Shown piece by piece: positions 2,629 through 17,127 of a DNA stretch of 64,000 nucleotides. How positions within the stretch are numbered: position 1 is the stretch's first letter; each line of letters starts with the position of its first letter. The stretch covers positions 310,001-374,000 of the forward strand of contig NZ_JARUBN010000001.1 of the NCBI RefSeq assembly GCF_029626265.1. The letters are read 5' to 3'. A program made the translations under genes and the position numbers. The DNA comes from Micromonospora sp. WMMD1102 (GTDB taxonomy: Bacteria > Actinomycetota > Actinomycetes > Mycobacteriales > Micromonosporaceae). The notes below the pieces were generated by a model that saw only the letters and a program-made list of their open reading frames with translations, had not been told where the DNA came from and made no database searches.

Positions 2629-4797
2629 GTGGCGGCTGACCTACGCGTGGAACGGATCCTGGCCGGGCTCGACCCCGAGCAGCGGACCGCGGTGACCGCC
2701 GCGGCCGGACCGGTCTGCATCCTGGCCGGCGCCGGGACCGGCAAGACCCGGGCGATCACGCACCGGATCGCCTACCGGGTGACCAGCGGCGAGGTCGCCG
2801 CCCGGCACGTGCTCGCGGTCACCTTCACCGCCCGGGCCGCCGCCGAGCTGCGGGCCCGGCTCGGCGCGCTCGGCGTGCCGGGGGTGCAGGCGCGGACGTT
2901 CCACGGCGCCGCGCTGCGCCAGGTGCGGTACTTCGCGTCCCGGCTGCTCGCCGGCCGGGAGATGCCGGAACTGCTGGACAGCAAGGTCCGGCTGGTCACC
3001 CTGGCCGCCGCCCGCGCCGGGCTGCGCACCGACCGGGCCGCCGCCCGGGACCTGGCCGGCGAGATCGAGTGGGCCAAGTCGTCCCTGGTCGAGCCGGGGG
3101 AGTACGTCGTCGCGGCGGCCAAGGCACTCCGCGAGACCCCGCACGACCCGGCGAAGGTGGCCGAGGTGTTCGCCGGCTACGAGAAGGTCAAACGGGCCAA
3201 CGGTGTGATCGACTTCGAGGACATGCTCCGGGCGGCAATCTGGGGGATCGAGGAGCACCCGGACGTCGCCGAGCAGATCCGGGCACAATACCGGCACTTC
3301 GTGGTCGACGAGTACCAGGACGTGAACCCGCTCCAGCAGCGGTTGCTGGACGCCTGGCTGGGCGGCCGGGACGACCTGACCGTGGTCGGCGACGCCAGCC
3401 AGACGATCTACTCGTTCACCGGGGCCACCTCGGCGTACCTGGTCGACTTCCCCCGGCAGCGCCGCGACGCGGTGGTGGTCCGGCTGGTCCGGGACTACCG
3501 CTCCACGCCGCAGGTGGTCGGGCTGGCCAACGCGGTGATCCGGCAGGCCCGGGGCGCCGAGGCGCGACTCCGGCTGGAGCTGGTCGGGCAGCGTCCGCCG
3601 GGCCCCGAACCGGACCTGCGGATCTTCGCGGACGAGCCGGCCGAGGCGGCGGCGGTGGCGGTGCGCTGCCGGGAACTGGTCGCCGCCGGCACACCGGCCC
3701 GGGAGATCGCCGTGCTGTTCCGGACCAACGCACAGTCCGAGGCGTACGAGAAGGCGCTGGCCGAGGCCGAGGTGCCGTACCAGGTGCAGGGCGCCGAGCG
3801 GTTCTTCGAGCGGACCGAGATCCGGCAGGCACTCGTCGCGCTGCGTGCCGCGACCCGGTCGACGCCCGGGGACATGCCGCTGGTCCCGGCCGTGGTGGAG
3901 GCGCTGGCGGCGGTCGGCTGGACCCCGGAAAAGCCCCCGCCCGGCGGCGCGGCCCGGGAGAGCTGGGAGGCGCTCGCCGCCCTGGTCCAGCTTGCCGAGG
4001 AGTACGCGGCCAGCCCGGCCGTGCTGCCGATCGGCGAGGCGGCCAGCGTGGAGCGGCCGGTGACGCTTGCCGACTTCTGCGCCGAGCTGGGCCGGCGGGC
4101 CGCCGCGCAGCACGTGCCGACGGTAGACGGCGTGACGCTGGCGTCGCTGCACTCGGCGAAGGGGCTGGAGTGGGATGCCGTGTTCCTGGTCGGACTCTCC
4201 GACGGCACGCTGCCGACCAGCTACGCCAAGACCGTCGAGCAGGTGGAGGAGGAGCGTCGACTGCTCTACGTCGGGGTGACCCGGGCCCGTCAGTGGCTCT
4301 GGCTGTCGTACGCCTCGGCCCGCTCGCCCGGTGGCCGGGCCCGCCGGCCGTGCCGGTTCCTGCCGCAGTTCGACCGCTCCGGCGGGGCGCGTACCGCCGA
4401 CGCCCCCGGCGGGAGTCGGAAACCCGACCGTCGACGTACCCAGGTCGTCTCCTGCCGGGTGTGCGGGGCGACCCTGCTGGCCGGCGCGGACCGCAAGCTC
4501 GGCCGCTGCGCCACCTGCCCCTCCGATCTCGACGAGGAGTTGCACGACCGGCTGCGCGACTGGCGGGCCCGGGTCGCCGGGGCGCAGAAGGTCCCCGCCT
4601 ACGTGGTGTTCACCGACGCCACCCTGGTCGCGCTCGCCGAGCGTCGGCCCGGCCGGGCGGCGGAACTGCTGGCCATCGCCGGGATCGGCCCCCGCAAGGT
4701 CGCGTTGTACAGCGATGCCGTGCTGGCGCTTGTCGACGGCGTCGGGGTCGACGACGTGCTGCTGACCGAGGAGCCGACCGAGCCGTCGTCGGGTTGA
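2629..4797 (+). CDS. uvrD2: ATP-dependent DNA helicase UvrD2 (SF1, with HRDC domain)
   Basis: A 722-residue superfamily-1A helicase. The Walker A motif AGAGTGKT is at residues 33-40, the Walker B-type DEYQDVNP at about 226, a Q-motif region LDPEQRTAV lies near the N-terminus, and TLHSAKGLEWD-like motif V/VI sequence is at about 505. Two features mark it as UvrD2 rather than UvrD1/PcrA. It has a tetracysteine cluster (C609, C612, C627, C630), and after it a C-terminal HRDC domain (about 645-715). Mycobacterial UvrD2 has this same architecture. The GTG start at 2629 sits before the conserved LDPEQ segment. Conserved neighbours (mycoredoxin before, whiB7 after) support the assignment. Role: DNA unwinding in repair or replication. 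Confidence 0.95.
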   Translation: MAADLRVERILAGLDPEQRTAVTAAAGPVCILAGAGTGKTRAITHRIAYRVTSGEVAARHVLAVTFTARAAAELRARLGALGVPGVQARTFHGAALRQVRYFASRLLAGREMPELLDSKVRLVTLAAARAGLRTDRAAARDLAGEIEWAKSSLVEPGEYVVAAAKALRETPHDPAKVAEVFAGYEKVKRANGVIDFEDMLRAAIWGIEEHPDVAEQIRAQYRHFVVDEYQDVNPLQQRLLDAWLGGRDDLTVVGDASQTIYSFTGATSAYLVDFPRQRRDAVVVRLVRDYRSTPQVVGLANAVIRQARGAEARLRLELVGQRPPGPEPDLRIFADEPAEAAAVAVRCRELVAAGTPAREIAVLFRTNAQSEAYEKALAEAEVPYQVQGAERFFERTEIRQALVALRAATRSTPGDMPLVPAVVEALAAVGWTPEKPPPGGAARESWEALAALVQLAEEYAASPAVLPIGEAASVERPVTLADFCAELGRRAAAQHVPTVDGVTLASLHSAKGLEWDAVFLVGLSDGTLPTSYAKTVEQVEEERRLLYVGVTRARQWLWLSYASARSPGGRARRPCRFLPQFDRSGGARTADAPGGSRKPDRRRTQVVSCRVCGATLLAGADRKLGRCATCPSDLDEELHDRLRDWRARVAGAQKVPAYVVFTDATLVALAERRPGRAAELLAIAGIGPRKVALYSDAVLALVDGVGVDDVLLTEEPTEPSSG

Positions 4798-4977
4798 CAC
4801 AGGGCGTCGGGCTGGGACAGGTCGCCGGGCCGAGGCGGGGGCGGCCCCGTGCCGCGCGGCCGTGGCCGACCGGGCTCGTTGCGGTCCGGCCCGAGCTGAC
4901 CGGCTCGCGGTTCGGGCTGGTCGGAACGGCCGTCGACGAGTGTCGGAAGAAAGTTCCGCAATCTCGCCGTAATTCGT

Positions 4978-5007
4978 TTGCCCTCGCGCGGGGCGGGGGC
5001 ATAGCCT
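4978..5007 (+). promoter_or_regulatory. Probable whiB7 promoter
   Basis: A -35-like TTGCCC (4978-4983) and a -10-like TAGCCT (5002-5007) are separated by 18 nt. Just upstream is an AT-rich patch (GTAATTCGT, about 4969-4977) in otherwise GC-rich DNA. Known WhiB7-activated promoters carry an AT-rich block next to the -35, which the WhiB7 AT-hook binds, so autoregulation is plausible. The predicted start lies about 480 nt before the whiB7 codon, which leaves room for the long leader. Confidence 0.55.
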
Positions 5008-5099
5008 CATGGCACACCTTGCGAGCGGCGGTCTTCCGGCTGCTCAAGAGGGGGATGAGTCCGATGTTGGCGACGAGTGAGAGTCAGGAGGTGGCCCCA

Positions 5100-5357
5100 A
5101 TGGGGACGACCTATGTCACCCAGCGACCGTGGGCGCTGCCTGCTGCCCCCGCTCCGGTGTCAGAGGTCGGCTGCATGCTGATCACTGATCTCCTCCGGCG
5201 CTCGCAGGCGCACCAGGTCCTGACCCAGGCCGAGCTGGTTCAGGCCCCCGCGTCCGCGCAGCACCAGGGGACCAATGGATTCACGGGCAATGGCATCCGT
5301 GTCGGCGTCAAGCGGATGGATGTCAGCGGGGTTCCACCTCGAGGGAGACCGGTCTAA
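5100..5357 (+). CDS. Leader ORF (uORF) in the whiB7 5' region
   Basis: An 85-codon ORF starts at ATG 5100 with a perfect AGGAGGT ribosome site at 5086-5092. A longer in-frame start at ATG 5064 behind GAGGGGG is also possible. It begins MGTTYVTQRPWALPAAPAP and ends PPRGRPV; I recognise no domain. Its TAA stop (5355-5357) lies inside a small hairpin directly before an attenuator stem, and whiB7 follows 130 nt later. Leader ORFs that sense slowed translation upstream of whiB7 are established in other actinobacteria. The peptide sequence is probably less important than ribosome position. Whether all 85 codons are translated is inferred from the ribosome site and stop placement. Confidence 0.6.
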   Translation: MGTTYVTQRPWALPAAPAPVSEVGCMLITDLLRRSQAHQVLTQAELVQAPASAQHQGTNGFTGNGIRVGVKRMDVSGVPPRGRPV

Positions 5358-5383
5358 CACAGACCAGCCGGCTCACCTCGAGG
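5337..5383 (+). promoter_or_regulatory. Candidate antiterminator segment of whiB7 leader
   Basis: Two copies of the self-complementary octamer CCTCGAGG (5337-5344 and 5376-5383) can pair with each other. They enclose a CCGG/CCGG pairing (5349-5352 with 5368-5371). An alternative local hairpin GGTCT-aacac-AGACC (5351-5365) holds the leader ORF stop codon. The second octamer covers the first three bases of the downstream terminator stem, so the two folds compete. The pairing is visible in the sequence; the regulatory reading is inference. Confidence 0.45.
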
Positions 5384-5415
5384 CCGCGGACCCCGTACAC
5401 CGGGATCCGCGGCCT
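5381..5415 (+). terminator. Attenuator-like hairpin upstream of whiB7
   Basis: AGGCCGCGGA (5381-5390) is perfectly complementary to TCCGCGGCCT (5406-5415), and inner CCC/GGG pairing extends the stem. It is followed by a weak T-containing tail (TAGTCATTT). It lies 24 nt after the leader ORF stop and 75 nt before whiB7, which suits transcription attenuation. Confidence 0.65.
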
Positions 5416-5490
5416 TAGTCATTTCCGCACTGCCGAAGTAAGTCGGAACAGCGATCTAAAAGATCGGAACGAGAGAGAGGTGACCGGGCG

Positions 5491-5856
5491 ATGAGTCTGG
5501 CGTTGGCCCCCCTCGACGCGAACGTCGAGCTGGAGGCGAACCTGCCCTGCCGGAAGTTCGACCCCGACCTGTGGTTCGCCGACTCGCCTGCCGAGCTGGA
5601 GCTGGCCAAGTCGCTCTGCGGGGACTGCCCGCTGCGCGTCGAGTGCCTCGCCGGTGCGGTGGACCGGGCGGAGCCGTGGGGCGTCTGGGGCGGCGAGATC
5701 TTCGAGCGTGGCGCGGTCGTTCCGCGCAAGCGGCCCCGGGGTCGCCCGCGCAAGGAGGACGTCGCCCGGGACGCGGCGCTGCGGGTCGAGGCCCAGGCGC
5801 GGCTGGCGGCCAGTGGCCTTGCCGAGTCGCGCAGCGCGGTCCGGTTGGCGGCCTGA
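5491..5856 (+). CDS. whiB7: WhiB7-type iron-sulfur transcription factor
   Basis: A 121-residue WhiB-family regulator. The four cluster cysteines are C20, C43, C46 and C52 (Cxxc spacing C-x2-C-x5-C for the last three). The turn motif GVWGGE is at 64-69, and an AT-hook RGRPRK is at 83-88. The AT-hook is the hallmark of WhiB7, which binds the housekeeping sigma factor and activates intrinsic antibiotic-resistance genes when translation is inhibited. Its place directly after uvrD2 and before an ABC1/AarF kinase is the same as in M. tuberculosis. The tail after the hook (RKEDVARDAAL...) is longer than in mycobacterial WhiB7. Expression is probably controlled by the promoter, leader ORF and attenuator described above. 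Confidence 0.95.
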   Translation: MSLALAPLDANVELEANLPCRKFDPDLWFADSPAELELAKSLCGDCPLRVECLAGAVDRAEPWGVWGGEIFERGAVVPRKRPRGRPRKEDVARDAALRVEAQARLAASGLAESRSAVRLAA

Positions 5857-5965
5857 CATGAACCCGATCCGTACCAACGCCGGTCTGGTATCGGCGCCGA
5901 ACACCGCGATGGCCGCGGTGTCGAGAACGAGTACTGCCATGCCCATCCGAGACGGAGCCACCAAG

Positions 5966-6115
5966 ATGCATCTCATCCACGAAGCGTTGTCACGGGCGCG
6001 AATGCGACTGCCTCAGGCCGGTCGCAGCACCACGAGCACTGAGGCAACCCGATCCGCCCGCACCATCGCGCTGGAGGCCCGTCGCCGGGCCGCCCGCGAG
6101 CTGGGCAGCCTGTGA
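5966..6115 (+). CDS. Small basic protein, unknown function
   Basis: A 49-residue protein beginning MHLIHEALSRARMR and ending RRRAARELGSL. It is rich in Arg/Ala and has predicted helix throughout. GGAG lies 8 nt before ATG 5966. Similar short proteins opening with M-[HN]-L-I-H-E-A-L-[AS]-R-A occur commonly in Micromonosporaceae and Streptomyces (recalled, not searched). Longer in-frame starts exist at 5858 and 5939 but have no comparable ribosome site. No function can be assigned. It lies between whiB7 and the convergent AarF gene. Confidence 0.6.
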   Translation: MHLIHEALSRARMRLPQAGRSTTSTEATRSARTIALEARRRAARELGSL

Positions 6116-17053: not shown

Positions 17054-17127
17054 CGCGGGGTGGAGCAGCTCGGTAGCTCGCTGGGCTCATAACCCAGAGG
17101 TCGCAGGTTCAAATCCTGTCCCCGCTA
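17054..17127 (+). tRNA. Initiator tRNA-Met (CAU)
   Basis: The 74-nt cloverleaf begins CGCGGGGTGGAGCAG, has anticodon arm CTGGG-CTCATAA-CCCAG with anticodon CAT, and a T-arm GCAGG-TTCAAAT-CCTGT. Two hallmarks identify the initiator. Position 1:72 is unpaired (C1 against T72), and three consecutive G-C pairs close the anticodon loop. CCA is not encoded. It sits between the UPF0182 gene and the accessory region and is a typical integration target, though I found no repeat of its 3' end elsewhere in the window. Confidence 0.97.

Follow-up and report, generated by a model that had tools for sequence, protein, structure and literature searches.

A conserved whiB7 leader in Micromonosporaceae and its probable role as a ribosome-controlled transcription attenuator

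Described whiB7 leaders and the Micromonospora locus

In actinobacteria, WhiB7 controls intrinsic resistance to many drugs that target the ribosome. Actinobacterial whiB7 leaders comprise an upstream open reading frame (uORF), a terminator, and an antiterminator overlapping both (PMC10727445, citing Lee 2022, Burian and Thompson 2018); the same three elements of whiB7/wblC are described in PMC11550727, PMC9618640 and PMC13393426, citing Lee, Lee and Roe 2022, and a conserved uORF with a predicted terminator in front of whiB7 in two mycobacteria (PMC4128351). The locus studied here shares with the Streptomyces and Mycobacterium whiB7/wblC attenuator the gene, a promoter with an AT-rich site, the uORF, the terminator and an antiterminator drawn from uORF and terminator. 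Other leaders show further likenesses: the ilvB motif of Corynebacterium (PMC11109978, PMC10272879) has a uORF, terminator and antiterminator, and in the ilvB1 model of M. tuberculosis (PMC13236596) a ribosome at the stop codon masks the antiterminator; the ilvB/ilvB1 uORFs are enriched in branched-chain codons, whereas the body of the present uORF showed no amino-acid constraint in a substitution test. In the ARE ABCF leaders are5sc and tiaA of Streptomyces (PMC12421871) and the vmlR leader of Bacillus (PMC9226507), antibiotic-hindered ribosomes turn the terminator off, as proposed here, but the translated uORFs of are5sc and tiaA comprise 3 and 9 codons, with stalling at the start codon (PMC12421871), compared with 85 codons in this leader. 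The mechanism is thus in kind already known, and the Micromonosporaceae element is a family-level member. An earlier reading of the DNA without database searches (the sequence-only reading) had taken the arrangement to be undescribed, which does not hold for its kind, since leaders of this kind are described in PMC10727445 and the same element was found class-wide here.

The leader, about 475 nt long, lies between a helicase gene (2629-4797) and whiB7 in a 64,000-nt stretch of the genome of Micromonospora sp. WMMD1102, the whole of which was analysed and is called the window. Its features are as follows.

4969-4974, + strand: candidate AT-rich site of WhiB7/WblC type, GTAATT, ending 3 nt before the -35
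4978-5007, + strand: predicted promoter, -35 TTGCCC (4978-4983), 18-nt spacer, -10 TAGCCT (5002-5007)
5086-5091, + strand: Shine-Dalgarno (SD) sequence AGGAGG, 8 nt before the ATG
5100-5357, + strand: leader ORF (uORF) of 85 aa, ATG at 5100, TAA at 5355-5357
5322-5329, + strand: 5' strand of helix P0, GTCAGCGG, pairing with 5384-5391 (7/8 pairs in the window)
5330-5336, + strand: 5'-side bulge of 7 nt that separates P0 from P1, from the offset of the GCGG match
5337-5344, + strand: 5' strand of helix P1, octamer 1 CCTCGAGG, inside the uORF (codons CCT CGA GG)
5351-5365, + strand: stop-codon hairpin P3, GGTCTAACACAGACC (GGTCT AACAC AGACC), with two-sided changes at 5/6 pairs
5376-5383, + strand: 3' strand of P1, octamer 2 CCTCGAGG, complementary to octamer 1 across relatives
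5381-5415, + strand: GC hairpin resembling an intrinsic terminator, sharing 5381-5383 with octamer 2
5384-5391, + strand: 3' strand of P0, CCGCGGAC, the core of the terminator 5' arm
5491-5856, + strand: whiB7, 121 aa, Pfam Whib PF02467 (E 1.4e-13)

The sequence-only reading had described this layout, i.e., a promoter with an AT-rich patch, a leader ORF with a ribosome site, its stop codon within a small hairpin, two self-complementary octamers, and a GC hairpin 24 nt past the stop, and each of these elements is confirmed at the positions listed. As in the whiB7/wblC attenuator, a WhiB7 orthologue, recognised by PF02467, lies immediately 3' of the leader; an AT-hook match in its product was below cut-off and a search of NCBIfam gave no match at E 0.01. 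The helicase gene 5' of the leader encodes UvrD and HRDC domains, and mycobacterial whiB7 has the same neighbour. Homologues of whiB7 were found in 146/150 Micromonosporaceae genomes and, in an order-wide search, in 116/121 genomes (loci L131-L148 from this search were left out of the leader counts). On the 3' side, an 85-aa ORF (5858-6115, + strand) begins 1 nt past the whiB7 stop and has no Pfam match at E 0.1; an ORF with a common core (EALSRARM, then PQAG) stands just 3' of whiB7 in 26 of 30 loci, the window included, with a start that differs in some of them, and in the remaining four the script met a short ORF first.

A scored search placed the promoter in 123/130 leaders, its scoring favouring the AT-rich patch at the same place. 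The WblC motif GAAAWY sits 3 nt before the -35 (PMC7157823), a position that the candidate site GTAATT also takes, agreeing in 5/6 letters. A sigma-70 consensus scan of the window did not detect the promoter of the whiB7 leader because its -35 and -10 depart from TTGACA/TATAAT, and a T-run/consensus scan of the window missed the terminator of this leader because the T tract 3' of the hairpin (5416-5427, TTAGTCATTT) is interrupted: 6 of its 12 nt are T (5-9 across the family). Many relatives have at least 6 consecutive T after the hairpin, unlike the window's TTAGTCATTT. At Rfam cut-offs no family was reached in the leader, and the whole window yielded only a tRNA at 17054.

Competing folds in the family and the class

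We collected 130 leaders from 41 Micromonosporaceae genera, including the window (its own genus is g1 in our numbering), and a second set of 15 more; G051, one of the 146 genomes with whiB7, is outside both sets. Pair counts were made on the leaders themselves and on alignment A2, which holds 60 of the 130, hand-picked for diversity from 40 of the 41 genera (g21 was left out). Alignment A4, which contains opposite-strand matches, and the class alignment A5, in which the 7-bp and 8-bp forms of P1 are offset by one column, were excluded from pair counts.

A lone octamer is no rarity in the window (3 occurrences vs 3.16 expected), and its frequency was dropped as evidence, being at chance level; the spaced pair occurs once vs 0 in shuffles. 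The two strands lie 5' of a terminator-like hairpin in every leader of both sets. They are complementary in 130/130 leaders of all 41 genera (1038/1040 cells paired, the two failures lying in L110 and L121), and, as the search pattern required CCYCGRRR on the 5' side and NNNNGAGGCCG on the 3' side and so fixed most letters of pairs 1-4, the free test lies in pairs 5-8, where 519/520 cells are paired. P1 is also fully paired in 15/15 leaders of the second set. Counted as leaders and genera rather than as independent changes on a tree, two-sided changes from G-C to A-U occur at pair 7 in 14 leaders (8 genera) and at pair 8 in 8 leaders (3 genera); they alter the encoded residue and keep the RNA pair. 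On A2, where the L121 octamer was misaligned by MAFFT and so scored as unpaired, 92.3% of the cells of the antiterminator fold are paired (27-42% in slid controls) with 38 two-sided cells vs 15.6 in shuffles; on one of five measures, 'further pair types', this fold was not above shuffles on A2 (100/500).

The terminator fold has 98.2% of its cells paired on A2 and 10 two-sided cells vs 0.7 in shuffles, and in L094, where the core reads CCGTGG for CCGCGG, both the 3' arm and the upstream strand have changed to match. A Rho-independent terminator is therefore indicated by the predicted hairpin together with its covariation, its T tract being interrupted in the window. The sequence-only reading had named lack of covariation in either fold as one result that would refute it; since both folds covary, that objection falls. 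P3 is paired in just 79% of cells (A2) and competes with an alternative pairing, CCGG:CCGG, which is the one favoured by the predicted fold of the window. In the bulge region, GGGGTTC and GGACCCC could also pair, as noticed by eye in the window; since variants do not keep this pairing, an impression not backed by a count, it was set aside.

Upstream of octamer 1, the strand GTCAGCGG can pair with CCGCGGAC. When the transcript is folded only up to the terminator 5' arm, the P0 helix is predicted beside P1, across the 7-nt bulge. Its core GCGG:CCGC is complete in 126/130 leaders, against at most 15/130 at 16 other offsets; over all eight positions P0 has 7 or 8 pairs in 63/130 and 5 or 6 in 62/130, and predicted folds of the truncated transcript hold 4/4 core pairs in just 79/130. 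The octamer pair shares just 3 nt with the terminator. Before the 3' arm exists, the antiterminator fold beats the terminator hairpin in 129/130 leaders (-35.1 vs -29.9 kcal/mol in the window), a comparison in which the antiterminator is the longer RNA. Once the RNA is complete, the terminator conformer is stabler than the P0+P1 conformer by a mean of 8.7 kcal/mol (-56.6 vs -48.5 kcal/mol in the window), so that the switch would have to be kinetic and decided during transcription. When octamer 1 and the stop are masked as if by a ribosome, at least 90% of terminator pairs form in 125/130 leaders vs 75/130 unmasked, a test that discriminates weakly because at a 70% threshold they form in 124/130 already without the mask.

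A covariance model built from the Micromonosporaceae element, whose E-values are rough and some of whose matches are on the opposite strand, matched 144/197 class genomes at E up to 0.01, 3 of them from Micromonosporaceae, and whiB7 lies downstream in 27/27 of the best 27 loci outside the family. The genome of the window has one strong place, the leader itself. A second copy was considered and set aside: the next sense-strand match (E 0.0098) lies in an 807-aa ORF, RHS/intein-like by eye, and was taken as chance; a further sense-strand match is weaker (E 0.80), and two opposite-strand matches at the window are the element's own near-palindrome. Outside the family P1 takes forms such as CCTGGAG/CTCCAGG, CCCTGGAG/CTTCAGGG and CTTGGAG/CTCCAAG, among others. 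Of 96 class loci, 87 entered a comparison of P0; in 8 the terminator core could not be recognised, and one more was dropped. In 49/87 of these leaders vs 29/174 control windows, the 8-mer that precedes the terminator core finds a partner with at least 7 pairs. P0 itself reaches 8/8 pairs in 15/87 vs 2/87 controls, and at least 7 pairs in 36/87 vs 24/87. Eleven of the 15 belong to one genus (g107) and keep exactly the 7 nt between P0 and P1; the other four are the named Mycobacterium loci L238, L241, L244 and L247, in which, unlike in Micromonosporaceae, it is the P0-like strand (GTCCGTGG or GTTCGTGG with CCACGGAC) that stands out clearly. The remaining Mycobacterium loci in this comparison have a P0-like helix of 5 to 7 pairs. 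Given the margin at 7 pairs and the restriction of full P0 to two genera, support for P0 outside the family is narrow.

These data bear on two other accounts of the octamers. They might be a DNA palindrome for a protein: CCTCGAGG is self-complementary, and in Micromonosporaceae, unlike in the whiB7 leaders of other families, P1 is usually this palindrome, which stands at both sites in 94/130 leaders. At least one octamer is off the palindrome in the other 36, however, and compensatory changes keep full pairing (with G-U allowed) in 34 of them, e.g., CCTCGAAG with CTTCGAGG (11 leaders, 6 genera), CCTCGAGA with TCTCGAGG (6 leaders of g12) and CCTCGAAA with TTTCGAGG (2 leaders), and the strands of other families (CCTGGAG/CTCCAGG and the like) are non-palindromic, so we regard a protein site as extremely improbable. 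The sequence-only reading made the octamer pair alone the antiterminator, to which P0 would be incidental. P1 does have the clearest covariation, the conservation of P0 is partly explicable as coding (R/S-G), with one two-sided change within the family, and complete P0 outside it is confined to the two genera named above. Yet P1 coexists with the terminator: when the terminator core is forced, at least 4/8 P1 pairs persist in the minimum-energy fold of 118/130 leaders. The overlap of octamer and terminator arm that had been claimed is thus real, at 3 nt (5381-5383), but does not by itself exclude the terminator. P0, moreover, keeps a fixed distance with its core in 126/130, and the third codon position over it is constrained, with C as third letter in 128/130 while the next codon, GGN, takes all four. 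The switch probably involves more than the octamers, and we consider it unlikely that they act alone; because they do not exclude the terminator, P0 matters, and exclusion more likely stems from the additional upstream strand GTCAGCGG (GCGG core) on the terminator 5' arm.

The leader ORF, its stop codon and its last codons

A start preceded by an SD was assigned by rule in 115/130 leaders (GGAGG in 99); the uORF has 85 codons in the window and a median of 95 in these 115, and a second in-frame ATG stands at 5064. An in-frame stop follows octamer 1 by 10-28 nt in 124/124 leaders outside genus g12 and in 6/6 such leaders of the second set. Where TGN or TAN stands at +10, which is the case in 109 non-g12 leaders, it is a stop in 103 (TGA 54, TAA 25, TAG 24). 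A putatively translated uORF ending just 5' of the terminator, as in the whiB7/wblC attenuator, is thus present in the window; the stop is lacking before the terminator end in 12 of the 15 leaders of g12 (L115, L117, L125-L128, L283-L291), where only L286, L289 and L290 have a stop in between and the frame of L125 is open into the whiB7 match. Despite the missing stop, the octamers of g12 pair fully and the hairpin is present.

The peptide body varies freely in the leaders inspected and in the substitution test, which covered 7 genera (the g1 count excludes L006, whose start was assigned too far upstream): position 2 changes at least as often as position 3 in six of the seven and nearly so in the seventh, and position 1 changes are lower in g1 and g4. 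This suggests selection on most of the uORF for being translated and terminated and not for the peptide it encodes, as would suit a generic sensor of translation. In the last 14 codons, third-position changes exceed second-position changes in 5/7 genera (e.g., 5, 0, 15 in g1; 15, 74, 180 in g4), and these codons are constrained by RNA pairing and perhaps by the peptide as well. Within octamer 1 the codons CCT and CGA each occur in 129/130 leaders; in the adjacent helicase gene, CCT accounts for 0/41 Pro and CGA for 3/78 Arg codons. Among the codons at the uORF end (5334-5348), CCA, CCT, CGA and AGA are absent or rare in the helicase gene, the sole gene compared; such codons could delay ribosomes on octamer 1.

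Three further accounts concern what the ribosome does there. If the uORF encoded a specific arrest peptide (C-terminal RGVPPRGRPV), the conserved letters would serve the peptide and not RNA pairing; PPR is encoded in 130/130 leaders, consecutive prolines can slow ribosomes, and the third-position excess in the last 14 codons suits a peptide as well as an RNA. We find this very improbable, since in 20/130 leaders PPR is followed by S, R, E or K in place of G and octamer 2 matches the change (fully in 19), synonymous sites are frozen within the octamer and free beside it, and third positions show no excess of changes in the peptide body. The stop might instead be dispensable, with pausing of the ribosome over octamer 1 mattering rather than parking at the stop. 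The g12 leaders without a stop, with their full P1 and their hairpin, speak for pausing, whereas the unbroken retention of the stop outside g12 (124/124 and 6/6) speaks against it, and we give it little credence. A two-part lock is somewhat less doubtful, though we hold it only tentatively: P1 would be a clamp that coexists with the terminator and serves nucleation only, P0 would be the true switch, and g12 would have the lock without the uORF stop. Were this so, ribosomes stalled over 5322-5329 should not induce, even though the octamers can pair, and the textbook parked terminating ribosome would have been replaced in one genus. A parked-ribosome model does not account for the stop loss in g12.

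Proposed mechanism and its bearing on the family

We conclude that the whiB7 leader is real, well conserved and probably functional and that, judged from comparative sequence evidence, it very probably is a ribosome-controlled transcription attenuator of whiB7 with P0 and P1 together as antiterminator. An attenuator of this kind with competing folds, as the sequence-only reading had it, is well supported; its interpretation as a whole is partly supported. RNA polymerase would start near 5013-5016 and a ribosome would translate the uORF. An unhindered ribosome at the stop (5355) would sit over octamer 1; with octamer 1 covered, P1 and P0 could not form, the hairpin at 5381-5415 would form, and transcription would end near 5420. 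If ribosomes were stalled or too few, e.g., through an antibiotic or amino-acid shortage, 5322-5344 would be free, octamer 1 would pair with octamer 2 (P1) and GTCAGCGG with CCGCGGAC (P0), an antiterminator predicted from uORF and terminator sequence as in whiB7/wblC leaders. P0 and P1 would then hold the terminator 5' arm by kinetic capture until the polymerase has passed, and whiB7 would be made, with WhiB7 presumably activating its own promoter through the AT-rich site.

A literature search for whiB7 with Micromonospora and attenuation, or for whiB7 with Micromonosporaceae, returned no paper. As far as this limited search shows, the family-wide covariation record, the dissection of P0 and P1, the evidence that the peptide is largely not under selection, and the stop loss in g12 are new. 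With the covariation record across Micromonosporaceae, a known mechanism can be modelled base by base and yields sharp predictions, namely on the parts of P0 vs P1 and on the positions at which a stalled ribosome would induce whiB7.
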